Positions 1 through 16,568 of a stretch of 22,683 nt of DNA are shown here, piece by piece; position 1 is the stretch's first letter, and each line of letters opens with the position of its first letter. Source of the stretch: a virus. The stretch spans positions 1-22,683 of IMG/VR virus record IMGVR_UViG_3300032238_000731; one strand, 5' to 3'. Made by a program: the position numbers and the translations under genes. Below the pieces are notes generated by a model. That model saw only the letters and a list, made by a program, of their open reading frames with translations. It had not been told where the DNA came from and ran no database searches.

Positions 1-264
1 AAAGCAATCATCTCTTACGCTGATAGTGATTTCCATAATGGTACAATCTATCGCGCTTGTAACTTTAAATATTGCGGACTCACAGACCCAAAGAAAGATT
101 TCTACTATGCAGACGGAACTAAACACTCTAGAGGCAAAATTAAAGGTGCTGAAGGAGAGTGGAAAGAACGTTCCCAAAAACACAGATATATAATGATATT
201 TGATAAAAAACTTGAATGTTTGTGGAAAAATGATAAGTGTGCTAAAATAAATGAGTCCGTGTGA
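1..264 (+). CDS. Mom-like DNA-modification protein (GNAT fold), C-terminal part
   Basis: This is an 87-codon frame open from the window edge to TGA at 262-264; the start lies outside the window. It begins KAIISYADSDFHNGTIYRACNF, followed by KYCG, DGTKHSRG and KHRYI..FDK. A SYAD start, an IY.A..F.Y.G segment typical of the acetyl-CoA-binding half of GNAT folds, an HSRG stretch and a late KHRY are what I recall from the Mom family. In phage Mu, Mom converts adenine in phage DNA to N6-carbamoylmethyladenine and so blocks host restriction. No Com-like translational activator is visible, though it could lie upstream. The gene ends in a terminator and is separate from the structural operon downstream. 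The family call rests on motif memory; another GNAT acetyltransferase is the main alternative. Confidence 0.55.
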   Translation, partial: KAIISYADSDFHNGTIYRACNFKYCGLTDPKKDFYYADGTKHSRGKIKGAEGEWKERSQKHRYIMIFDKKLECLWKNDKCAKINESV

Positions 265-280
265 AGGAAGTTTAATTTCT

Positions 281-310
281 CCCTCTAATTGCAAAATTAG
301 GGGGATTTCT
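281..310 (+). terminator. Hairpin terminator after the Mom-like gene
   Basis: The 10-bp stem CCCTCTAATT (281-290) pairs with AATTAGGGGG (295-304), with one G-U pair, around a GCAA tetraloop of the GNRA type. ATTTCTTATT follows. It separates the modification gene from the large structural genes. The T-run is interrupted, so termination may be partial. Confidence 0.65.
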
Positions 311-314
311 TATT

Positions 315-322
315 GATAAATA
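315..322 (+). promoter_or_regulatory. T4-type late promoter motif GATAAATA
   Basis: GATAAATA lies 31 nt before the ATG at 354, in the only gap ahead of the gene. The T4 late promoter is TATAAATA, recognised by sigma gp55. Similar NNTAAATA motifs precede the next two structural genes (5977-5984 and 11157-11164). No -35 element would be expected for this class. The motif is short and A+T-rich, so position and recurrence are the main support. Confidence 0.5.
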
Positions 323-353: not shown

Positions 354-3300
354 ATGGGTCTTAGTCGTTTAAATAATTTTCTAAAGAATCCAAGAGGTGA
401 GATCATTTATGTTGATCCCTCAAGTTTAGACTCTACTGATAGTATTGAAAATCAGGGAAACTCTCTTACTAGACCATTTAAAACTCTTCAAAGAGCTTTA
501 ATTGAGGCAGCAAGATTTTCTTATCAAGCGGGAAAAAATAATGATAGGTTCGGTAGAACAACGATTATGCTCTATCCTGGGGAGCATCTTGTTGATAATA
601 GACCTGGGTTAATTCCAATTCATGAAGCTCCAATTTCTGGAAATAATTTCTTAGCAAGATCTGGAACTCCTACTAATAATTTTTATGAATTAGATGCTGC
701 AACTAATTTTGATTTAGAATCTCAAGATAATATTCTTTATAAGTTTAATAGTATTCATGGTGGAGTTGTTGTTCCTAGAGGGTGTTCTATTATTGGACTT
801 GACTTAAGAAAAACAACAATTAGACCAAGGTACGTACCAAATCCAGAAAATGATCAAATAGAAAGATCTGCAATCTTTAGGGTAACTGGAGCTAGTTATT
901 TCTGGCAATTTACTTTACTTGATGGAAGTCCAAGTGGATATGTATATAAAGATTATACAAATAATAAGTTCATTCCTAATTTTTCTCACCACAAATTAAC
1001 TGGATTTGAATATGCTGATGGTGTTAATGATGTAGTCATTAGTGATGATTTTACTACCTGGGTTTCGACCAGAACTGATCTTGAAATGTATTATGAAAAG
1101 ATTGGTATTGCATTTGGACCTTCAAGTGGTAGACCAATTCCTGCAGCAGGAAGTATCTATGGCGACTATCCTTCCACAATTGATATTGAACCAAAAATTG
1201 ATGAATTTAGAATTGTTGGATCTCCTGCCGATAGTGTAGGTATTTCAAGTATCAAGGCTGGAGACGGTGCAACTTCATCAACGACTGTTACTGTATCTTT
1301 TAACGCACCATCCTCAGTATTCCAAGTAGACTCTCCAATTAGAGTACAAGGTGTAACAGCTTCTGGATATAATGGACAGTATGTTATAAGTGAAGTTGTA
1401 AGCGCAAGTGAAATCAAATACGTTGTACAAAATCCACCATCCCAACCACTTCCCACTATTAATGGATCTCCTACGGTAACCGCTGTAGTTGATACTGTAT
1501 CTTCAGCATCTCCATATATTTTCAATGTTTCTCTACGCTCCGTATTTGGAATGTGTGGACTTCATGCTGATGGTGATAAGGCAACTGGATTTAAGTCTAT
1601 GGTTGTCGCTCAATTTACTGCGATTGGTCTACAAAAAGATCCAAATGCTTTCATTAAATATGACCCAACATCAGGATCATATTTGGATTATACCTCTCCT
1701 GGAAATGAAAATATTGGGTCAGACTCTAAGGCAAGATATAATCCAAAATACGAGAACTATCATATTAAAGCATCAAATGATGCTATTCTGCAGTTAGTTT
1801 CTATCTTTGCTATTGGATATGCAAATCAATTTGTTGCTGATCAGGGTGGTGATCTATCGCTAACAAACTCCAACTCAAACTTTGGTGCTAGAGCTCTAAT
1901 CGCCAGAGGATTTAAAAGAGAGGCATTCTTAAAGGACGATACGGGATATATTACTCACATCATTCCTCCCAGAGAATTGGAGACAGATGAGATTACTGTC
2001 GAATTCTTAGGTATAGATGTTGGAGTAACCACTTCTGTGGGCGCCGCAGCAACCACAAAACTTTACTTATATGATTATAAAGATCTAGATAACCCACCAA
2101 ATAGTGTTATTCAGGGATATAGATTTGGAGCCAAATATAATGATAGGCTGTATTTGACTATAATTAGACATGATTATGGGACTGAAAAAGTTTCAACTCC
2201 AATTTTAATGGAAGGAACTCCCGGAACTGGAGCTGAAGCTGTTGCTAAGAAATCATTTACAGTTGGAATATCTGGAGTAGGAGTAAATCTAATACAAAAT
2301 AATGTTCTGACCTTAACTTCTCCACATACTTTAAAAACTGGAGAAAGTGTTAGGGTACTGAGTGCTAATGGTTCTCTACCTGATGGAATTACTTTCAACC
2401 AAGTTTATTATGCAATTACCTCAGAATACTCACCTTCTCTACTTCCAAATCAAATTAAATTAGCGCAAACTGTTAACGAATCTATTAACGATAGTCCAGT
2501 GACTATTAATAGTAGAGGTGGTTTATTGACTGTAGAGAGTAGGGTTTCTGATAAAGTTCCTGGAGAAATTGGTCATCCAATTCAGTGGGATTCTGTTAAA
2601 AATCAATGGTTTATAACAGTTCCTGATACTAATGATAACCAAATTTATACTCTTATTAAGAATTATGGGTATGCAGTTCTGGGTGAAACTACATCAAAAA
2701 CATATTTGAAAAGAAGACCAGACCCAAGACCTTTATCTGATACCATTTTTAGACTTAGGTATGTTATTCCAAAAGATTCTTCCATCAAAGGAAGACCTCC
2801 ATTGGATGGATTCATTCTTCAAGAATCCAATAGTTCAATGCCCGCAACAACAGCAGAAATTCAAAAATTCTTTGGGTCAACTTATCAAGAACTTAGCAAC
2901 TCTACGGAATTAAGAAATCCAAAATTCATTTCATATGCTTATTGGGTCGATCAACCAGGGTTTGGAAAAGTTGCGATTATTTCTACGGAAATGCCCCATA
3001 ACTTATTCTTTGGATCCGAAGTTGAAATTCGTAATATTGTAAGTTTGGGTAACTTAACAGCAGAGTATGGTAAAGGATTTAATGGAAACTTTAGAGTCCT
3101 AACTACAATCTCTAGAAAAGAATTTGTCATCTCACTTCCCAATAATCCAGGAATTTTCTTAAGTAATACTGCTGTTAGAACTGCTTCTCTTCCTTATTAC
3201 AAGAGGAAAAAATATCTTGGGACATACGTTGTATATCGTACACAAGAAATTCAAGAATATATTCAGGGAGAAAAGGATGGAATTTATTATCTAACCATTA

Positions 3301-5969
3301 TAAATTCTGGTAATGGACCATCAGTAACTCCATTTAGGGGAGATACGGTCGCAACTACAGATATTTACGGAAATGCAATTCCTGAAGATATCTTATCGTT
3401 CCAATCCACTGGTGACAAATATTTACAACCAATCCAGTATCTATATCCACAAACAAATAGAGATAATCCTGTATCAGATCCTCCTCCTTCAGTATCTTAT
3501 GCTCTTCCCGATCCAATCGGTCAAGTTATTATTAATAATCCTGAGCATAGTATTTCTAAAGAGACTCTTGGAAGATCACTTGTGGACCTTGGTGTTGGTG
3601 TTGGTCTAACGAATATTGTTTCTCAATTGGATGGTCCATCTGTTTCTCAATACAATCATACAATTTACACAAGACTTGAGCATGGATATAACAGACTTAC
3701 TGGACTTACAATTTTAAGTGGCGGTTATAATTATGGATTTGGAGTTTCGGGAACTTTATATAATGCTCGTTTAGTAAATCCTGGAATTACTCCATTTACT
3801 GTAGGCGAAGCTGCTACTGCTGCAATTAAAGTTAATTCTAGTGGTTCTATTACTGGAATTAGTGTAATGGATGGTGGTAGTGCGTATAAAGTTGGTGATG
3901 TTCTTGCTGTTGTTGGTGTTGTAACTGCTGCTGGATCTGGACTTGGTATTCACACTATTGGATTAGTTCAAGTAACTAACATTTATGATAACGTTAATGA
4001 TACTGTTTCTGTACAGGGGGTTGTTCCACCAGTTTATGATGGATATAATACTCTTTATAAGATTACATCAGTACCAACTCCAACTTCACTTGCAGTAAAA
4101 TCTACTGATGCTGTTTCTGCGGCTAATCCTCTTGGTATTGGAGCTACATTTACTTTATATTCAGTTCTTCAAAACAATGCTCCTTCGATAAAAATTAGTA
4201 ATCTTACTTATGATTATAGGACTGGAATTGCGACTGTTAACTGTACAGACAGTCATGGAATTTTCGTCGATAGTAAAGTGAAACTTGGTGGATTTGACCA
4301 ATCTATTCTGAATAGTTATTCTATTGTTAAGAAAATTAATAGTTTCACTTCATTTAATATTAAACTTGGAATTAGCACTGTAGCAATTTCTACTGGTGGT
4401 AGCGATTTAACCGTTTATAAGGCTGGATTTGGTGCTAATGGTGGTGCATTAAGTAGAGAAAAGGAAAGAGTATCTGCTAGACTTGTTACTGAATATGCTG
4501 GTATAACTACTGTTATAGGTGCAACAATTAATGATACCACAGTATCTACAGTGGTCATTCAAAATGTACAAAATTTTGATTTTAAAATTGGAGACTTTTT
4601 CTCAGTCGATGATGAAATTTTTAGAATTAAAGCAGCTCCTGGAATTGGAAGTGCTTTATCAAATCCAGTTTCTGTATTCAGAGGCGTATTTGGATCTAGA
4701 AAGTCTCCACACCCGATTGGATCTTCTGTAAGAAGAATTTATGCTAGACCTTCTGAATTAAGAAGACACTCTATTGTAAGAGCATCTGGACATACCTTTG
4801 AATATGTTGGATTTGGTCCTGGAAATTATTCTACAGCTTTACCAAGTTATCAAGATAGGGAATTAAAACCAGCAGAAGATTTGATATCTAAATCTCTTCG
4901 CGTTAATGGTGGTATTAACGTATTTACTGGAATGAATAATGACGGTGACTTCTTTATTGGTAATAAGAGAGTAAGTTCTGCTACTGGTCAAGAGGAAATT
5001 TTTGACGCACCAGTTCCATCAGTTACTGGTGAGGATATTACTTCAACTTTAGGTGGTCTAAGTGTTGGATTTGATTTAATTACTCCACTTGAAGCAAAGA
5101 TTGATAGATCGATTAGAGTTGATGGTGGATCCGATAACAATGTTACTTCGGAATTTAACGGACCAGTTATCTTTAACAACCAAATTATTTCTAACACAGA
5201 AAGAGGAGTGCAAGTTAAAAATCTTGTTCTTCAAGGTGAATCTGATACAACTCAAAAAATAAGCGTTGGAATTTCTACTCCTACAGTTGCTGGTGATTAT
5301 GGTGATGTTACATTTACTGATAATCCAATAAGTGGTGGATATGTTGGTTGGGTATATACTATTGATAATAAATGGGAAAGATTTGGTCCTATTCAACAAA
5401 CTGATAGATATGTAGGTATTTGGTCGGGAAGTGGATTAAACGTTCCATCATTCTTTGGAGATGGTTCTGGACTCTATAACGTTTCTGATATTTGGGAAAC
5501 CGATGCTGTTGGTATTCATACTATTGCAAATATTGGTATCGGAACACTATCTGCAAAAGTTGGAGTTTCTCTGTATGTAAATGGAAGAGTTGAAATTTCT
5601 GGACTTAGTACATTTACAAATACAACTCAATCTACAAGTGAATCTACTGGTTCAGTTGTTATTAAAGGTGGAGTTGGAATTGGTAGCAACTTAAATGTTG
5701 GTCAAGATTTTGGAGTAATTGGCGAGAGCACATTCGCAAATAACGTTTATATTTCTCCTTTATTGGATGTTACTGGGCAATCTAATTTTGATACAGTTCG
5801 AGTTTCTGGAATATCTACCTTTGAAAATAGAGTTGGATTTGATACTTATGTTTTTGTTGGAAATGGGCTAAGAGTTGCTGGAATCACTACTTTTAATAGT
5901 AATGTTTTCTTCGGATCAGTTCCATATAGAGCTCTAATTTCAAGTTATGCTATTGTCTTTGGGGTTTGA
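354..5969 (+). CDS. Large virion structural protein, pectin-lyase-like N-terminus and fibre-type C-terminus
   Basis: A 1871-residue protein, probably a tail or baseplate-associated adhesin. Residues about 19-60 (IIYVDPSS, then GNSLTRPFKTLQRAL and MLYPGEHLVDN) read like the first coils of a right-handed beta-helix of the pectin-lyase type. The middle carries divergent beta-domains with a PH.L..G..V...G core near residues 655, 879 and 1299, and a GSITGISVMDGGSAYKVGD module near 1160. Around 1478-1497 is GHTFEYVGFGPGNYST, recalled as conserved in cyanomyovirus structural proteins. After about 1690 the sequence becomes fibre stalk: GDGSGLYNVS, GIHTIANIGIGT, STGSVVIKGGVGIG. The last residues (PYRALISSYAIVFGV) end rather abruptly. 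I saw no continuation in another frame. The ATG lacks a clear ribosome site. It is first of three large genes with late-type motifs. No enzyme active site is evident. Confidence 0.85.
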   Translation: MGLSRLNNFLKNPRGEIIYVDPSSLDSTDSIENQGNSLTRPFKTLQRALIEAARFSYQAGKNNDRFGRTTIMLYPGEHLVDNRPGLIPIHEAPISGNNFLARSGTPTNNFYELDAATNFDLESQDNILYKFNSIHGGVVVPRGCSIIGLDLRKTTIRPRYVPNPENDQIERSAIFRVTGASYFWQFTLLDGSPSGYVYKDYTNNKFIPNFSHHKLTGFEYADGVNDVVISDDFTTWVSTRTDLEMYYEKIGIAFGPSSGRPIPAAGSIYGDYPSTIDIEPKIDEFRIVGSPADSVGISSIKAGDGATSSTTVTVSFNAPSSVFQVDSPIRVQGVTASGYNGQYVISEVVSASEIKYVVQNPPSQPLPTINGSPTVTAVVDTVSSASPYIFNVSLRSVFGMCGLHADGDKATGFKSMVVAQFTAIGLQKDPNAFIKYDPTSGSYLDYTSPGNENIGSDSKARYNPKYENYHIKASNDAILQLVSIFAIGYANQFVADQGGDLSLTNSNSNFGARALIARGFKREAFLKDDTGYITHIIPPRELETDEITVEFLGIDVGVTTSVGAAATTKLYLYDYKDLDNPPNSVIQGYRFGAKYNDRLYLTIIRHDYGTEKVSTPILMEGTPGTGAEAVAKKSFTVGISGVGVNLIQNNVLTLTSPHTLKTGESVRVLSANGSLPDGITFNQVYYAITSEYSPSLLPNQIKLAQTVNESINDSPVTINSRGGLLTVESRVSDKVPGEIGHPIQWDSVKNQWFITVPDTNDNQIYTLIKNYGYAVLGETTSKTYLKRRPDPRPLSDTIFRLRYVIPKDSSIKGRPPLDGFILQESNSSMPATTAEIQKFFGSTYQELSNSTELRNPKFISYAYWVDQPGFGKVAIISTEMPHNLFFGSEVEIRNIVSLGNLTAEYGKGFNGNFRVLTTISRKEFVISLPNNPGIFLSNTAVRTASLPYYKRKKYLGTYVVYRTQEIQEYIQGEKDGIYYLTIINSGNGPSVTPFRGDTVATTDIYGNAIPEDILSFQSTGDKYLQPIQYLYPQTNRDNPVSDPPPSVSYALPDPIGQVIINNPEHSISKETLGRSLVDLGVGVGLTNIVSQLDGPSVSQYNHTIYTRLEHGYNRLTGLTILSGGYNYGFGVSGTLYNARLVNPGITPFTVGEAATAAIKVNSSGSITGISVMDGGSAYKVGDVLAVVGVVTAAGSGLGIHTIGLVQVTNIYDNVNDTVSVQGVVPPVYDGYNTLYKITSVPTPTSLAVKSTDAVSAANPLGIGATFTLYSVLQNNAPSIKISNLTYDYRTGIATVNCTDSHGIFVDSKVKLGGFDQSILNSYSIVKKINSFTSFNIKLGISTVAISTGGSDLTVYKAGFGANGGALSREKERVSARLVTEYAGITTVIGATINDTTVSTVVIQNVQNFDFKIGDFFSVDDEIFRIKAAPGIGSALSNPVSVFRGVFGSRKSPHPIGSSVRRIYARPSELRRHSIVRASGHTFEYVGFGPGNYSTALPSYQDRELKPAEDLISKSLRVNGGINVFTGMNNDGDFFIGNKRVSSATGQEEIFDAPVPSVTGEDITSTLGGLSVGFDLITPLEAKIDRSIRVDGGSDNNVTSEFNGPVIFNNQIISNTERGVQVKNLVLQGESDTTQKISVGISTPTVAGDYGDVTFTDNPISGGYVGWVYTIDNKWERFGPIQQTDRYVGIWSGSGLNVPSFFGDGSGLYNVSDIWETDAVGIHTIANIGIGTLSAKVGVSLYVNGRVEISGLSTFTNTTQSTSESTGSVVIKGGVGIGSNLNVGQDFGVIGESTFANNVYISPLLDVTGQSNFDTVRVSGISTFENRVGFDTYVFVGNGLRVAGITTFNSNVFFGSVPYRALISSYAIVFGV

Positions 5970-5976
5970 GTATTTT

Positions 5977-5984
5977 GCTAAATA
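5977..5984 (+). promoter_or_regulatory. T4-type late promoter motif GCTAAATA
   Basis: GCTAAATA sits in the 53-nt gap between the first and second structural genes, 38 nt before ATG 6023. It shares TAAATA with the motifs at 315-322 and 11157-11164. No hairpin terminator is visible in this gap, so read-through plus internal late initiation is plausible. Confidence 0.5.
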
Positions 5985-6022
5985 ATAGAAAGTTAAAAAA
6001 AGTCACACAATAAGAGGGTCTA

Positions 6023-9000
6023 ATGGCTAGAAAACTGATTTATGGTCCTGATATTCTAGGTTTTACTCCATCTACCGGTATTTTAACGGCAAAAGGATAT
6101 ATTCCTGGACAAAGAGTATTACTGATTAATAATCAAACAATCAATACTTCTATTTTTAATTTTTCGGACCCTCTAACAACAGTAACAACAAATTATGATG
6201 GAGTAACAAACAAAACTACGATAGATTTATCTGTAGATACTTCGTCAATGAGTGCAACTGATAAACTTCAGATTTACTATGAAACTGAGGATGTTACGTT
6301 TGAACCCGGCGCTGCTTATGTTGATGGCGTAAACAAATTTAGAGTTAGTGAAGGTCAATCTCTAATTGATACAGACTTTGAATATGGTCTTCAATATTCA
6401 AAGTGGGAAACGTTAAAGCAAGTTAATAATATTCCGACAACATATTCTCTTGCTGCTGCTACACAAGATCCCATTACAGTATCAAGTATTGATGTTAAGA
6501 GAAATGGTACAACTGTAACTGTTAATTGTGCAGAACCTCATAATTTAATTCCAGGATCAATCGTAGAAATTATTGGTCTTGTCGAAAGTTTATACGAAGG
6601 AACATATATTGTTAGTTCTGTTGCTGATGTAGATACATTTACTTATAAAGTAAAATTTAAGGCAAACAAATGGAAAAATCTATTAACTCCATATACCTTA
6701 GTATATCCTGGAGCATTTTATACTGGTTCTGGGGTTAATGTTCTTAACGTCGAAACAGATGCAAATCCTGTTGCAACTGGATCTACAATTACTGTAACAA
6801 CTCTAACTGACCATGGATTTAATGATGGAACCAAACTTTATCTTAAATCTTCTAGAGCTGTAAAAGTAAAGAAAATTGATAGTCCTGTAAATATTATTGC
6901 TGGAACAGCAACAACAACTCAAAGATCAACGATTAATTCATCTACAACTCCTAACGATAGTCGATATTTTGCAAATAAACCTATTATTATTGATGATTGG
7001 ATGGGAGATTTTGAGATTAACTTCCCATTCTCTGCTGTTAATACAACAACTGGACAATTTTCTTATACGAGTAATCAACAGGTTGGTGTTGCTAGAACCA
7101 CTCCGTTGGTTACTGGCGATGCAATTTCATTCTATACTCCTGTAGGTAATACTCTTCCTGGAGGAATTACATCTTTCAGAACATTCTATGTATTTAATGC
7201 TTCTTCTGTAACAACTGGAATCACTACAACAAATAAAATTGGAGTAACGACGACTACTTTCAATATTGCAAGCAGTTGGGGAAGCACCACACCATTTGTT
7301 CCAACCAGCACTGGTAATACTTTATATGGAAATCATAGACTTATTGTTGGTAGAAAAGTTAATAATATTACGAGACAGGATGTAATTACATTCAGTAAAG
7401 CGCATAATTTTAAAGTTAATGATACTTTAGTAGTTGTTTCTCCAAGTGCAGTTTCTGCTGTAACCAGATCTAGATCTAATCACACAAAAAATGAATATTC
7501 ATATTATTATGTTAGAAAAGTAAATAGTTCTACTCAAATAGAAGTATCTACTACTCAAGGTGGTAGAATTGCGAATATTAATAGTGGGAGTTCGACAGTA
7601 ACCCCAGTTGCATCAAATATTTGTGTTTTTGCTAAAGTTAAAGCACATCCATATGCAAATTGCCTCTGGTTACCACCTCAAGTTGGATTTGCAACGCACC
7701 CATATGAAACTGGTGATACTGTTACATATACTGCTTCTGGTGGTGTTGGATTTGTACCTGCAGGATTAACTAATAATGAAAACTATATTTTAAGAAGAAG
7801 ATATCCAAATAGATTCTGGTATGATCTACATCCAAAAACAACTCCTGATATAAATGCTCCAATTAATCTTGTCTTTAGTAATGCAGCTGCAGGAAATGTT
7901 TATGCTGGTATTCATACTATATCAAGATCAACGCCAAGTTTAGCCGCTTCTACTTTTAGAATTTCTCTTCCACCAAGAGGTGGAATAAACAATAACAAAT
8001 ATTTACAATACTCTTCTGGTATAACTGTTTCTGCTGTTGGCGGACTTGTTAATAATGGATATTATTACGCTAAGACAGGAGATAAAGAAACTATTATTAA
8101 CCCAGGAATTAGCACAGTAAATGATAGATTTAGACTCGCAGATGTAACTGCTGAAACTAGCATTTATGCTGTTGCATATTCCAAAAACCAAACTTACATG
8201 GACATTTATGTAAATAATACAAATGTCGTTGGTTATGGAATTAGTGTTGGTAAAATGATTCAAGTTTCTGGATTTGACGGTACTGCATATGAGCAAAATA
8301 TTTTAAATGGATTGCATTATGTTACTGGTGTTACAACTGCTACCAGTGGTACATATAGATTAAAACCAAGAGTTAGGGTATTTTTCCCAATCGCAACTAA
8401 AAATAGATTTAACTCAGTATCAATTGTAGGAGGAACTAAGAGTTTAAAAAATACTAGGGTTTGTGGTATTGTTTCTTTCTCTTCATCTGGTGGAATTGGA
8501 ACTCACTTCTTATACGATAACAATGATAATGCTGCTGATGGATTATATGAAATTGAAAATTGTTCTGGAACTACATTTACATTTAATACTGGTGTAGAAA
8601 TACCAACAATTGTTAAAACCTTTACTGGAGGAACTGCTGCAGGTAATGTTGGATGGGGCACCACTGCTTCCAGTCCACTTATTAATTCGACTTGGATCAG
8701 AGTTTTAAATCACAACTATTCTGACGGTACACAAGTTGTTTATAATGTTGGTACAGGAAATTCTGTAATCGGTGGATTGGTAAATGGAACAGAATATTAT
8801 GTTAGAGTTCGTGATAAAAATCACATTGGATTGACTACTATTGCAGCAGAGGCTGTAGATAGAATTCTTGATGATAATGATTATTTAATTATTTTCAGCA
8901 GTGCTGGTGCTAATGCTGCTCACTCTTTAACAACAAATAGTATTAAGGGATTCCTAACCGGACCAGGAACTGTTGGATTCTCAACTACATCGCAAATTAT

Positions 9001-11158
9001 TACTGGAACTAAACAAACTAGATTTAACTCTGATTTTTCTATTGGAGATATCTTTAGAGTTTATACATTAAAACCATCTGGAAATGGTCCAGGAACTTAT
9101 TTTCAGTCTAGAATTACTCAAATCAAAAATAACCAAATTTTACAAATTGAAGAAATTCCTGAATATAATTCATCCGCTTCAAATTATTTTGTCCCAACAA
9201 GACTGTATCCTATTTCGGATTCAAGAATTTCACATAGATCTTATGATGGTGGAATTTCGATGACTGCTGGTTTAGTACCAAATACTCAAGTAATTCGACA
9301 AACAAGAAGATACTTTAAGTATCAATCTGGTAAGGGAATTCAATGTTCAATGGCTGTTAACTTTAACCCAACCATTGATATTGATCAAATTACTCCATAT
9401 GGATCTGTTGGTGTTACTACAATTGCTTTAATTGATTGTAAATATCCTCATGGACTGTCTGATAATGCAACTGATCTTGAAGATCTAAGAATTCATGTTA
9501 TGGGATGTGAAGGTCCATATGATGACGATTATAATCAAGATTTCCCACTGGTTGAGATTATTGATCAATACTCATTCACCGTTGCATTCCCAGATGAAGT
9601 ACCTAGAAGAGAACCTTTAGGGTTCCCCAAATTCTCAATAATCAATTGGGGAGATGCTGATGTAAGTATTAAATGTGGAATGTTTGATTCTCAAAATGGA
9701 TTCTTCTTCAAATATAATGGATCTAAACTATACTGTGTAAGAAGATCTTCAACTACTCAATTAGCTGGATGGGTTAATGTACAAACCTTAGAAACTGAAG
9801 TGAGAGGCGTAGACACTAGTTTTGTAGAGCAACTTGCAGCTAATGATAGAATGATCATTAGGGGTCAGACCTATAAAGTCATTAGAGTTGTTGACGACGA
9901 TCAAGTTTATATTCAACCAGGATATAGAGCTCCAAGTCAAAGAAGAATCTTTGCAAGTAAAGTAATTGATACTGAAGTTCCACAAGAAGAGTGGAGTATT
10001 GATCCTTGTGACGGTACAGGTAGATTTGGATATGATCTTGATGTTAACAAGATTCAAATGATTTACATGGATTATTCTTGGTATGGTGCTGGTAAGATTC
10101 GTTATGGATTTAAAGATCAAACAGGAAACTTAAAATATATTCATGAATTTGTACATAACAATGATTTTACTGAAGCATACTTTAGATCTGGAAACCTACC
10201 AGTTAGATATGAAATTGAGACCCTGGATACACCTTTATTCAGCCCAACACTTTATCATTGGGGAGTATCTGTTATTATGGACGGTGGATATGATGAAGAT
10301 AAAGGATATCTATTCAGTGCTGACTCAAATGCTTTACCATTTACGAATGGTGGTTACTCAAATAATGGTAGTGGAACAAGACCTGTTGGAAGCACTACAA
10401 GTGGATCTAAAATTATCACTGCAATTAACGCTACCGAAGCAAGTACCCTTGTTGTCGGTGAAATAGTTGAAGATAATGCATCAACCACCACATTCCCATC
10501 TGGAACTAAAATTACCTCTATTGAAATTGATCAGACAAATGCAACTACAAGATCAAGTAATACTTATCAAGTTACAGTAAATAAAAATGCAACATCGTCT
10601 GGATCTAAGACATTCAACGTGTATTCTGGAACGTCTGATTTAATTAAAAACTATGTACCTCTAGTATCCATTCGTCTTGCACCTTCTGTGGATAATGGAC
10701 TAACTGGTTCTCTTGGATTTAGAGATTTGATTAATCGTATGCAAATTGTTCTTAGAGAAGCAAGTATTTTAACAACTCACGACTGTGAAGCTGCTCTTTA
10801 TCTAAATTCTGAACTTTCTGATGATAACTTTGTTCAAGTTGGTCCTCCAAGTTTGTCTCAAATTTATAAGCATGAAGTTGGAGATTACTTCGCTGGTGGT
10901 ACAAAAATTTACTCCTTCAGAGTATCTGGTGGTGGTATTGTTAATGCTACCAGCGGTAAGAGAGGGTTAAATATTTCTAAGATTGATCTTACTGATATTG
11001 CTGTCCTAGGAAACTCAATTCTCGGTGGTGATAGAGTATTCCCCGATGGTCCAGACATTTTAACTTTGGTTGCAAAACCAATTGATACTTCTCAGATTAC
11101 TGGTTCATCGCCATTAATTCTATCTGCACGTATCACCTGGGCTGAACAACAAGTTTAA
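6023..11158 (+). CDS. Large virion structural protein, mosaic of beta-domains
   Basis: A 1711-residue protein with no signal peptide or TM segment, starting at ATG after AAGAGGGTCTA (a GAGG ribosome site). The N-terminal 130 residues (MARKLIYGPDILGFTPSTG..., YYETEDVTFEPGAAYVDG) form a distinct conserved-looking head. Then come many degenerate beta-domains with the core H.L..G..V...G......Y.V..V.....F, for example TTVTVNCAEPHNLIPGSIVEI (about residues 165-185), TDHGFNDGTKLYL, KAHNFKVNDTLVV and KYPHGLSDN. Near 1455-1532 a threonine/serine-rich GSTTSGSK..I module appears inserted before DLIKNYVPLVSIRLAP. The C-terminal section (LGFRDLINRMQIVLREA, HDCEAALYLN) is less repetitive and may fold as a globular tip or docking domain. 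Its position between two fibre-like genes suggests a tail or baseplate adhesin component. The exact T4 counterpart is unclear. Confidence 0.82.
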   Translation: MARKLIYGPDILGFTPSTGILTAKGYIPGQRVLLINNQTINTSIFNFSDPLTTVTTNYDGVTNKTTIDLSVDTSSMSATDKLQIYYETEDVTFEPGAAYVDGVNKFRVSEGQSLIDTDFEYGLQYSKWETLKQVNNIPTTYSLAAATQDPITVSSIDVKRNGTTVTVNCAEPHNLIPGSIVEIIGLVESLYEGTYIVSSVADVDTFTYKVKFKANKWKNLLTPYTLVYPGAFYTGSGVNVLNVETDANPVATGSTITVTTLTDHGFNDGTKLYLKSSRAVKVKKIDSPVNIIAGTATTTQRSTINSSTTPNDSRYFANKPIIIDDWMGDFEINFPFSAVNTTTGQFSYTSNQQVGVARTTPLVTGDAISFYTPVGNTLPGGITSFRTFYVFNASSVTTGITTTNKIGVTTTTFNIASSWGSTTPFVPTSTGNTLYGNHRLIVGRKVNNITRQDVITFSKAHNFKVNDTLVVVSPSAVSAVTRSRSNHTKNEYSYYYVRKVNSSTQIEVSTTQGGRIANINSGSSTVTPVASNICVFAKVKAHPYANCLWLPPQVGFATHPYETGDTVTYTASGGVGFVPAGLTNNENYILRRRYPNRFWYDLHPKTTPDINAPINLVFSNAAAGNVYAGIHTISRSTPSLAASTFRISLPPRGGINNNKYLQYSSGITVSAVGGLVNNGYYYAKTGDKETIINPGISTVNDRFRLADVTAETSIYAVAYSKNQTYMDIYVNNTNVVGYGISVGKMIQVSGFDGTAYEQNILNGLHYVTGVTTATSGTYRLKPRVRVFFPIATKNRFNSVSIVGGTKSLKNTRVCGIVSFSSSGGIGTHFLYDNNDNAADGLYEIENCSGTTFTFNTGVEIPTIVKTFTGGTAAGNVGWGTTASSPLINSTWIRVLNHNYSDGTQVVYNVGTGNSVIGGLVNGTEYYVRVRDKNHIGLTTIAAEAVDRILDDNDYLIIFSSAGANAAHSLTTNSIKGFLTGPGTVGFSTTSQIITGTKQTRFNSDFSIGDIFRVYTLKPSGNGPGTYFQSRITQIKNNQILQIEEIPEYNSSASNYFVPTRLYPISDSRISHRSYDGGISMTAGLVPNTQVIRQTRRYFKYQSGKGIQCSMAVNFNPTIDIDQITPYGSVGVTTIALIDCKYPHGLSDNATDLEDLRIHVMGCEGPYDDDYNQDFPLVEIIDQYSFTVAFPDEVPRREPLGFPKFSIINWGDADVSIKCGMFDSQNGFFFKYNGSKLYCVRRSSTTQLAGWVNVQTLETEVRGVDTSFVEQLAANDRMIIRGQTYKVIRVVDDDQVYIQPGYRAPSQRRIFASKVIDTEVPQEEWSIDPCDGTGRFGYDLDVNKIQMIYMDYSWYGAGKIRYGFKDQTGNLKYIHEFVHNNDFTEAYFRSGNLPVRYEIETLDTPLFSPTLYHWGVSVIMDGGYDEDKGYLFSADSNALPFTNGGYSNNGSGTRPVGSTTSGSKIITAINATEASTLVVGEIVEDNASTTTFPSGTKITSIEIDQTNATTRSSNTYQVTVNKNATSSGSKTFNVYSGTSDLIKNYVPLVSIRLAPSVDNGLTGSLGFRDLINRMQIVLREASILTTHDCEAALYLNSELSDDNFVQVGPPSLSQIYKHEVGDYFAGGTKIYSFRVSGGGIVNATSGKRGLNISKIDLTDIAVLGNSILGGDRVFPDGPDILTLVAKPIDTSQITGSSPLILSARITWAEQQV
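10385..10620 (+). other. Inserted GSTTSGSK-type beta module inside the 1711-residue protein
   Basis: Residues about 1455-1532 read VGSTTSGSKIITAI, then LVVGEIV, FPSGTKITSIE and YQVTVNKNATSSGSKTFNV. This matches a small module recalled from many phage and bacterial surface proteins (STTSGS..I.G......VG..V.G..I..GT.I.SI......T.S..AT..G...). The flanks (SADSNALPFTNGG and IKNYVPLVSIRLAP) are unlike it, so it looks like a cassette. The module identity is inferred by eye. Confidence 0.45.
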
Positions 11159-11164
11159 TAAATA
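11157..11164 (+). promoter_or_regulatory. T4-type late promoter motif AATAAATA
   Basis: AATAAATA overlaps the stop codon of the 1711-residue gene and ends 28 nt before ATG 11193. With the motifs at 315 and 5977 it makes a set of three NNTAAATA boxes, one ahead of each large structural gene. The A+T-rich surroundings weaken the single-site case. Confidence 0.5.
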
Positions 11165-11192: not shown

Positions 11193-14100
11193 ATGGCTAT
11201 CAATAAAAACTTCATTGTTAAGAACGGTCTTGAGGTCGGCACCAACGTAATTGTTGCTGATGAATCCACCAAAAAAGTGGGAGTTGGAACTACTCCCACT
11301 TCATATAAACTTGAAGTTTTTGGTGGACTTGGAACAAAAGATCTAAATGTAACTGGTGTTTCTACTTTATCAACTTTAAGTGTTGTTGGAGTAGCATCTT
11401 TTGTAAACTTAAGACCTCAAGGAATTTCTTGCACTGGTGTTGTTACTAGTGCTCAGTTTTCAACTGGATACCCTGGATTAGCAACTGCTATTGGAATTAC
11501 TACCGATACTATCAGTGGTCCTTCGGAATTATTCATTGACCCCGCTCCAATAGGAACTGATCTTGGAGTTTTGCACATTAAAGGTGATTTATATGTAGAT
11601 GGATCCTATGTTTCTCTATCTGCTGGAGATTTGGATGTATCTGATAAACTTATTGGTATATCTTCTAATGTTTCTCCTGACGATGCAACGACTGCTGATC
11701 AGAGCGGTATAAAAGTTTATGGTACAACAGATAAGACTTTTGTATATAATTATGGAACAGATTCTTGGCTATCTGATCAGAATTTAGATATTTCCTCCGG
11801 AAAAGTATATAAAATTGGTGGAGCACAAGTATTATCTAGTACTAATTTGGGGTCTGGGGTTACAATTTCCAGTTTACAAAATGTCGGTACACTTAAAAAT
11901 TTAAACGTACAGGGTTATATAAACGCTACTGGAGGAATTGTAGGGATATTAACTGGAAATTCTACCGGGTTAAGTGGAACTCCAGATATACTTGTTGGTT
12001 TGGTAACTGCAAGTACGGTATATGTTGGAGCAGCATCAACTTTAAATTCGAGTGGAATTGATGTAACTGGAATAGTAACTGCATCATATTTTGTAGGTGA
12101 TGCTAGAAATTTATTCAATGTTCCAATCAGTTCTAGGTGGTTAATTAATAATTCTGGTATTCATACCCTTGCAAATGTTGGAATCGGATCTACACTTCCA
12201 ACATCAAAATTAACGGTAACTGGAGATTCCAGAATCACTGGAGTAGTAACGGCTCAAAAGTTTGTTGGCGACGGATCTGGACTAACTGGTGTAGTTGGAA
12301 GTGGTAGTGGTACTATTGTCCAAGATGATGGAGTACTTGTTGGTACTGCTGGTACAATTAATTTTGGAAATAATTTAATCGTTTCTTCAATTTCTGCTGG
12401 TTTAGTTACAGTTACTGCAGAAGGATCTCCTTGGCTTTTAAATTCATCTGGTATTCATACAACTTCCAATGTTGGTGTAGGAACCACAAATCCAATTGCA
12501 CGTTTAGATGTTTTTGGAAGTGTTTCAGTAGGTGATAGTACGACATCTAATGCATCAATTACTAGAAAAAATACAGATTCTGGATTAGTTTTAAGTGGAA
12601 ATGGTGCAAATATTGAACTTTATGGTTCTACTCATGCATCTTTTGCAGATAGAGCTTATTATGATTCTCTAAATCATAATTTTAGAAATGTTGATTCCTC
12701 AGTAGTTTATGCAACTATAAGCACTGATACTTCTTACTTTAATAATGCCGTTTTAATTGGATCAGCAACTTCAACTGGAACTGTAGATCAAGATCTTCAA
12801 GTTACTGGCGGTGCTTATGTTTCTGGTAATCTTGGTATAGGAACCACAAATCCAAATTCAAAATTATCTGTTTTCGGGTCTGTTGATATTTCTGGTGGAA
12901 CAGTTACAATTGGATCTACTATATTCCAAGGTAACAGTAGACTTGGTTGGGGAGTTGGTAGTTTCAATACGACTAATTTAAGTTTTGGAATTAATGCAGG
13001 TGCAGCAACTACAAATGGAACTTCAAATATTGCTATAGGTCATTCCTCCCTTTACTTAGCACAAACTGGATTTGGAAATATTGCTATAGGAAATTCTGCA
13101 AGTAGAGGGTTAAAGAGTGGGAATGGAAATGTTGCGATTGGTCATAGAGCATTGAGTGCTCCTTTCCAAGTAGATTTGACTGGAAGTGGTAATATTGCTC
13201 TTGGTTATTTGGCTGGAAGAGATTTATCTTTAGGCGCAAGTGGAAACGTAATTATTGGTAGTGCAGATCCATCACTTTCATCTCCGACTGGTCCTGTTCT
13301 AGCACCACCACTTCCAAATGGTAGCGAGCAACTTGTAATTGGATCTTATAATGGAGCATGGGTTTATGGTACTAGTGATTATAATGTTGGATTGGGGATA
13401 ACTAATCCATCCTACAAACTCCAGGTAAATGGAACCGTAAGAGGTAATCTATTCATCGGTGATGGATCTGGTCTTACTGGATTCAACGCAACTGGTGTTG
13501 GTATGGAGGTTCGTGATAACGATATTCTTGTTGGTGTTGCGACAATTATAAACTTCGGTGATAATGTTAATGTAACTCAAATTTCAACCGGTATAATCAC
13601 TGTAACTTCCCCAAGAAGTCAATGGGTTAATACTAATGCAGGTATTCATACACTTTCCAGTGTTGGTATTGGTAGCACAAATCCACAATCAAGATTAACT
13701 GTATATGGTGATGCAAGAATTTCTGATGGACTATCGGTAACTGGTGTTACGACAATTACAACCATAGGTGCGGATGTAGCAACATTAAGAATTAAATCAG
13801 ATTATACAGATGCGAAACTAGTTATTGAAAGGGATGAGATTGTAGATAAGGCTCAAATAGAATTTTACAGTGAAGAACTAGGTGCAAATGATTTTACCAT
13901 TGGTTTATCTGGAGACAGAGTTTTTAACTTCTTAGATCAAAATGGAAGTCAACTCGTCGGCATTGATACTACTGGAAATGTTAAGGTTGTAGGTATAGTA
14001 ACTGCTAGTAAATTTGTTGGTGATATTACTGGTACTAACTTTAATATTACTGGAATATCAACACTTGAGAGTGTCCAAACAAATGGATTAAGGGTTTCTG

Positions 14101-15401: not shown

Positions 15402-15434
15402 ATTCTTAACTTTAATTTCACAGGAGTGAATAAA

Positions 15435-16568
15435 ATGGCGATGAAAGATCGTACAGTGTACGACAATTACTCTTCTATGAAGAGGGGTGGTGTAGAAAGT
15501 CCACGTCTAGCACGTGCACCTATTACAAGGGTGTACAGTTTAAAAGAACAAATTCTGGAACAATCTAAGTTGTTGTCGGAAGATCCAAATCATGAAGTTG
15601 AACTTAAACTTTATGAAAGTGAGAATGCTGTTCAGGTACTGAAGCAACGTACAGTTGCCGACAGCGTAATCCTTGGAGAAGCACAGCGGCAATTTACTAA
15701 AAGTCATAGCAAGAAAATTGCTAAGAGTGTATTTGATGTTTGCGTTCGTGGTGTTTTCCAGTCGGTTCAGGATAAAAATGGGTTGAACAAATTGTTTGAC
15801 CAGCAGCATTCTTTGACTGGACTTCTTGATAATGTTGATGGGAACAAAGATTTTACCGTTCCTTTTGCAGTTACTGTTCTAAAAGATAACTCTAAAGTAT
15901 CTGCAACTGATATTTGTGCTTTTGGATATGATTGTGTTAACAACAAGTCTAAAAAAAGCAATCCAGTTGAAAATTTTTATATTGGATTGAACTCTGGAAA
16001 TCCAAAGTGTATCAAAATCTATGAACACTTGGACAATCTTGAATTGGATGTAATGGAAAACAACTATAAAGTTTTTCCAGAATCTCCTAATCGTTTTTCT
16101 CTTGAAGGATTTGCTCTTTTCCAAGGAGTTTATGATGGAAAAAACCTTGCCCCATGGGTTCGGTATATGAAAAAATCTGTAGGAATTTTGCGAACTTCTT
16201 ATAGCAATAGTGCTTATGCAAAGGTAAATCCAACCAAGGCAAAGATTCTTAATATTTACGATATGAAGGGAGTTTCTTATCTTTTGTATCGTGTGAGCAC
16301 TCTTGCTGATACCATTAATTTTGATCAAGAACACTTGCAGTATGCAATCGAATCTTATTGGAATCGTCACACTGAAATGTTGCATCTTGATGGTGAAAAA
16401 ATGAATCGTTTGAACACTCCCAAAGTTTCTGGACTTTGGGAAGAAAGTGTCGCTTATAATTATGTTTTGCGAGCATATAATCGTTTTGCGATTGAGAAGT
16501 CAGTTCCTCTTCTTGATTTGAAGCAACTCTTTCCCAATGTCTGGCAAGTCTACCACCCTGCTGGCTGA
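15435..16568 (+). CDS. Unrecognised 377-residue protein
   Basis: I do not recognise a family. The ATG at 15435 is chosen because AGGAG (15422-15426) sits 8 nt upstream; the in-frame GTG at 15426 overlaps that site. The protein starts MAMKDRTVYDNYSSMKRGG. It has a basic, probably helical first 110 residues (SLKEQILEQSKLL, KSHSKKIAKSVFDVC), a middle with FTVPFAVTVLKDNSKVS and ICAFGYDC, and a C-terminal part rich in Tyr/Trp (WVRYMKKSVGILRT, YWNRHTEMLHLDG, GLWEESVAYNYVLRAYNRF). There is no signal peptide, TM segment, Walker motif or zinc motif. It is a monocistronic unit with its own strong promoter, a folded leader and a strong terminator. This suggests high, separately timed expression, as for a structural, DNA-binding or takeover protein; that role is inference. 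Confidence 0.8.
   Translation: MAMKDRTVYDNYSSMKRGGVESPRLARAPITRVYSLKEQILEQSKLLSEDPNHEVELKLYESENAVQVLKQRTVADSVILGEAQRQFTKSHSKKIAKSVFDVCVRGVFQSVQDKNGLNKLFDQQHSLTGLLDNVDGNKDFTVPFAVTVLKDNSKVSATDICAFGYDCVNNKSKKSNPVENFYIGLNSGNPKCIKIYEHLDNLELDVMENNYKVFPESPNRFSLEGFALFQGVYDGKNLAPWVRYMKKSVGILRTSYSNSAYAKVNPTKAKILNIYDMKGVSYLLYRVSTLADTINFDQEHLQYAIESYWNRHTEMLHLDGEKMNRLNTPKVSGLWEESVAYNYVLRAYNRFAIEKSVPLLDLKQLFPNVWQVYHPAG

Follow-up and report, generated by a model that had tools for sequence, protein, structure and literature searches.

Does the truncated reading frame that opens this presumed cyanophage tail-fibre region encode a DNA-modifying enzyme of the Mom family, and what would such an enzyme be doing beside the fibre genes?

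The gene fragment and its complete counterpart

The window, i.e. the whole stretch of 22,683 bases that was analysed, is the virus record itself, and the frame in question (window 1-264, plus strand) is cut by the contig start: it lacks a start codon, encodes 87 amino acids and closes with a TGA stop at 262-264, representing the last 87 codons and the stop of mom on the evidence of PF25680 (Mom), PHROG 1384 and a sister phage. A preliminary description had read a Mom-type gene from four motifs in these C-terminal 87 residues, and all four are present: SYAD (nt 13-24), IYRACNFKYCG (46-78), HSRG (124-135) and KHRYI (178-192). Even with the threshold relaxed to E 10, Mom was the sole Pfam family to match the fragment (E 5.1e-9, 36.5 bits, above the curated cut-off of 27.1), with no unrelated GNAT family as best match, and PHROG 1384, "Mom-like DNA modification protein", matched with E 1.1e-16. 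An independent profile of seven isolate Moms (Mu, Riggi, Stickynote, LP-124, PMBT8, Stockyards and Inception, leaving out three contig rows and CRP-212 of the source alignment) scored the fragment at 64.0 bits, whereas none of 2,000 shuffles exceeded 9.4 bits. Together with the conserved residues and the sister protein's matches to the Mu Mom structure described below, these results bear out the proposed assignment, and window 1-264 is confirmed, at the level of sequence, as the C-terminal part of a Mom-family gene.

The complete gene was found in the sister phage (L002, record G001), a 172,232-base virus record carrying a T4-type capsid gene 23. The two genomes are syntenic, with 86.9% DNA identity in an 18,950-column alignment starting at window position 1, and three fibre-region proteins are 90-94% identical; a further 380-amino-acid protein (window 15426-16568), 94% identical in the sister, had no PHROG or Pfam match. 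The sister carries a single Mom, encoded at 5641-6264 (207 codons), which matched Pfam Mom over residues 5-192 (E 1.8e-24, 87 bits); another relative, L039, reached 90.3 bits (cut-off 27.1), and NCBIfam and PADLOC gave no Mom match. Over the first 75 residues, the fragment equals the sister in 68 and the relative L004 in 71 positions, and the window and sister proteins have in common a C-terminal tail absent from the other Moms listed. Comparison with the sister phage suggests that the window's Mom continues N-terminally for about 120 residues past the contig end, and this missing 5′ part would resemble that of the sister.

The contig break leaves room for the fragment to come from a homing or HNH endonuclease, as its C-terminal module, with the nuclease part upstream, as two PHROGs of that kind matched weakly over the C-terminal part of their families (E 4e-4 and 7e-4), and endonuclease-like proteins appeared among viral structure matches. 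The Mom PHROG scores far better on the fragment, the sister gene is a stand-alone Mom, Pfam shows Mom only and no nuclease domain in the sister protein or in a relative from a second genomic slot, described below, and all 126 unique slot-assigned relatives are 195-217 amino acids long, which makes the endonuclease very improbable.

Purifying selection acts on the mom family, with median dN/dS of 0.11 among Moms of the gene-32 slot (107 usable pairs of 150 drawn), 0.16 among those of the fibre slot (68 of 150) and 0.145 between slots (21 of 150), after dropping pairs with dS of at least 1.5 or not computable. For the fragment only, the comparison with the sister is looser than these family medians (dN 0.075, dS 0.233), and only the 3′ part of the gene is visible, as would be expected of a decaying or truncated copy without function. 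We regard such decay as scarcely credible, as the break is the contig end and not a stop codon, the frame is open, and the identities to the sister and L004 are high.

Fold, conserved residues and predicted activity

In phage Mu, the mom enzyme chemically masks adenines in viral DNA, by a proposed mechanism that uses iron and acetyl-CoA. The structure of the sister Mom was predicted from 48 Mom sequences (mean pLDDT 84.1), and its best solved match in Foldseek was 8BV8, the crystal structure of the inactive Mu Mom S124A (E 4.6e-11). The same entry was top in VIA-align (Z 17.8, rmsd 3.3, 171 residues), ahead of the next at Z 14.1. A profile of the 48 relatives searched against PDB sequences at E up to 10 returned one match, again 8BV8 (E 2.2e-38), whereas a single-sequence search of the PDB returned none. 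The predicted model thus places the family, represented by the sister protein, in a GNAT-type fold.

This fold is common to many protein acetyltransferases (Z up to 14.1), and an ordinary GNAT enzyme acting on proteins or small molecules, e.g. host transcription or translation factors, would show it as well. However, no GNAT family in Pfam matched the fragment at E 10 or the whole sister protein at E 0.1, and Mu Mom ranks over all GNATs in the structure comparison of the sister model, leaving an ordinary acetyltransferase improbable.

Eighteen positions are invariant in an alignment of 11 Moms, Mu included, and presumably comprise the Mu active-site residues Y49, R101, D139 and Y149. Fifteen positions, i.e. 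12 from or near the invariant list together with K180, R182 and Y183, were checked in the unique slot-assigned relatives, and each was kept in 126/126. One of the fifteen is S104 of the sister Mom, the counterpart of the alanine in the S124A Mu chain. The window fragment itself contains only the invariant positions from residue 121 onward; S104, R88, H23 and Y24 fall in the N-terminal part absent from the window and are seen in relatives only.

Mu Mom (8BV8; AF083977 35907-36602) and the cyanophage protein have the GNAT-type fold, the invariant positions and the stand-alone architecture in common, and differ in sequence (23% identity) and in genetic context. In Mu, mom overlaps com, the translational activator of mom, whereas no com-like gene was seen before the cyanophage mom; the gene upstream in the sister, phrog_2818 (5462-5626, 54 codons), lies 14 bases before mom and has one cysteine and no Pfam match. 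The Mom-like proteins of Listeria, Enterococcus, Staphylococcus, Bacillus and other, unrelated phages (PHROG 1384) belong to the same family at about 28-34% identity, and six of them, when aligned, showed the same invariant residues. The Mom of Staphylococcus phage BSwM-KMM1 (L083:3696-4219) is annotated in two halves, as overlapping hypothetical genes. The closest isolate relative among the matches listed was the Mom of Roseobacter phage CRP-212 (52% identity over 95%), which, unlike the stand-alone cyanophage protein, is joined in one open frame to a MazG domain and whose gene is near DNA polymerase and ribonucleotide reductase genes, away from gene 32 or fibres. The CRP-212 record annotates only a shorter MazG gene within this Mom and MazG pyrophosphohydrolase frame (L082:3614-4591). 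Jumbo-phage Moms share the Mom domain and, according to PMC7824862, are often fused to restriction-type nucleases, a domain that the cyanophage protein lacks.

The low identity to Mu Mom and the several DNA-modifying GNAT types in phages, as described in PMC7824862, would also fit a Mom fold with altered chemistry, in which the acyl group, base or sequence context differs from that of Mu Mom. Because every position at which Mu and nine other phage Moms agree without exception is preserved, we hold altered chemistry to be unlikely, if the least so of the alternatives. With good probability, the gene encodes a stand-alone Mom-family enzyme of GNAT fold, most likely a carbamoylmethyl-type N6-adenine modifier of the phage's own DNA that blunts host restriction. 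The product would be an acyltransferase of about 207 amino acids, as in the sister, which after replication would place a carbamoylmethyl-type group on N6 of some adenines in phage DNA; DNA modified in this way would be cut poorly by those host restriction enzymes whose sites contain adenine. We infer all three elements for the cyanophage enzyme: the N6-carbamoylmethyl-adenine chemistry, adenine as the target and anti-restriction as the benefit.

A SAM-derived group had been suspected, since the sister has adjoining genes for SAM synthetase and SAH hydrolase (L002:3130-5465) immediately ahead of the 54-codon gene and mom. As a general rule for the Mom reaction, this was rejected on locus counts: neither gene was near mom in the examined flanking DNA of the 79 other nearest mom loci, mom stood beside SAH hydrolase in 2 of 38 SAH-hydrolase loci (L002 and L099), and three SAH-hydrolase phages carry mom in the fibre slot, far from the SAH-hydrolase gene. 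Besides the sister, SAH hydrolase was seen in 37 further viral-contig loci, some with psbA.

Genomic positions of mom and the junction with the fibre gene

The mom gene of uncultured T4-like cyanophages occupies one of two positions: one is flanked by gene 32 and gene 53, the other by the 54-codon gene and the fibre gene. Among the Moms nearest to the fragment (the best 80 of 550 relatives), 79 lie with gene 32 and/or gene 53, and only that of the sister is fibre-adjacent. Mom begins at the very end of gene 32 in 42 of the 61 full-length cases with both genes mapped, with a GTGA overlap at the junction in L004. Seen from the Mom side (1/80), the fibre-side gene might have been a quirk of the window phage, a view overturned from the fibre side, where 35 of the 80 nearest fibre loci have mom upstream, 34 have phrog_2818 without mom and 11 have neither. 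The preliminary description was right in placing mom directly upstream of the fibre gene; the place is indeed unexpected, as it had remarked, yet it is recurrent and one of two fixed homes. With cultured phages as queries, mom was found in 19 of 80 gene-32 loci (S-SRM01 query; 5 cut) and in 28 of 80 fibre loci (S-SM2 query; 1 cut), the locus sets being nearest matches, partly from the same populations, and no census. The 54-codon phrog_2818 gene was upstream of the fibre, with or without mom between, in 67 of 80 fibre loci (L300-L379).

Mom was present in 38 of 40 records, 37 of them with exactly one. The 23 fibre-slot records that also carry gene 32 each have one cyanophage-type Mom only, and in the sister the slot between gene 32 and gene 53 is empty, as the two gene matches are about 6 bases apart. 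A second, divergent Mom with 28% identity to that of the sister was noted elsewhere in the fibre-slot phage G040 (L469, G040:C1:137108-137704).

Just 3′ of mom, the window has a terminator-like hairpin of 11 pairs, followed by TTTCTTATTG (280..305, plus strand). The fold of window 262-322 reached -16.2 kcal/mol (z -2.4), the same hairpin in the sister -18.6 (z -2.2), and terminator-like sites numbered three in 1 kb, with 0.4 expected. The late-promoter-like motif GATAAATA (315..322, plus strand) stands 39 nt ahead of the first fibre gene's start codon; this gene (354..5969, plus strand), which follows directly after mom, matches PHROG 529 (tail fiber protein). In 30 of the 31 unique fibre-slot loci, NATAAATA is found at -35 to -39 of the fibre gene, both forms resembling what we take to be the late-promoter consensus. 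No such motif was present within 110 nt upstream of mom in the same 31 loci or in 95 gene-32-slot loci. Because the hairpin and the promoter-like motif lie between them, mom and the fibre gene are probably not one transcript and, from these signals, would be expressed separately; their neighbourhood looks like a shared insertion place and not an operon. The third fibre-region gene, whose start codon is at 11193, has a second NATAAATA motif 36 nt ahead of it (window 11157-11164).

Cultured cyanophages and slot history

Every one of the 391 phage records that the first fibre gene matched at the DNA level bears the name Synechococcus, Cyanophage, Prochlorococcus or Marine. The psbA/psbD family of photosystem genes was represented in 3 of the 14 mom records found via Mom loci (G002, G013 and G008), and no member was seen in the sister record; as these genes occur in few mom records, and the records are mostly fragmentary, we infer the host of the window phage.

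Mom experiments have mostly been made on Mu-like phages, and in this respect the preliminary description, which had called Mom best described there, holds; the family itself is wider, the sister Mom matching 224 of 50,697 phage records at E 1e-3. No cyanophage was among the best 60 of these 224, nor among the 69 records that matched a fibre-slot Mom at E 1e-12, i.e. Listeria (38), Enterococcus (23), Staphylococcus (6), Roseobacter (1) and Geobacillus (1). The same collection, which may omit records very near the window and whose isolates come from few host strains, holds 438 records named Synechococcus or Cyanophage with a gene-32 match. In S-SM2 (L548), the 54-codon gene and the fibre gene are present with the mom slot empty, and in S-SRM01 and S-SKS1 gene 32 adjoins the following minus-strand baseplate-region gene without mom. 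PMC10434257 and PMC9965433 describe Mom in other phages, and the literature searched, which covers few subscription journals, yielded no report of a cyanophage Mom. The family is known, and its cyanophage membership is without an earlier report found.

To our knowledge, the role of restriction in shaping cyanophages has been little tested. Among the uncultured relatives sampled, roughly one quarter to one third have mom, compared with no cyanophage record seen. This contrast suggests a widespread means of protection that culture collections overlook. It is possible, and we put it forward tentatively as something short of an even chance, that wild T4-like cyanophages carry mom as an exchangeable anti-restriction cargo. 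In such a scheme, either slot, gene 32/gene 53 or 54-codon gene/fibre, could carry the gene or be without it, no genome would have more than a single copy of the cyanophage type, and that copy would sometimes shift between slots; cultured cyanophages would lack the gene because laboratory hosts do not select for it, and the window's copy would have come from the gene-32 slot into the fibre slot.

Mom has likely moved between the slots, as far as the tree of sequences can tell, a reading that stays tentative because a tree in which the fibre-slot Moms all form a single clade was not rejected in the AU test (p 0.084; 56 rows, window left out). Nor was the grouping of L002 and L260 as one event rejected (p 0.255). 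The tree, built on 131 rows, unites the 95 gene-32-slot Moms without exception in one well-supported group (100/97), to which the fibre-slot Moms of L002, L260/L264 and the window likewise belong, the window row filling only 41% of the alignment columns. Along this tree the slot label changes 4 to 6 times, compared with about 30 times in shuffles.
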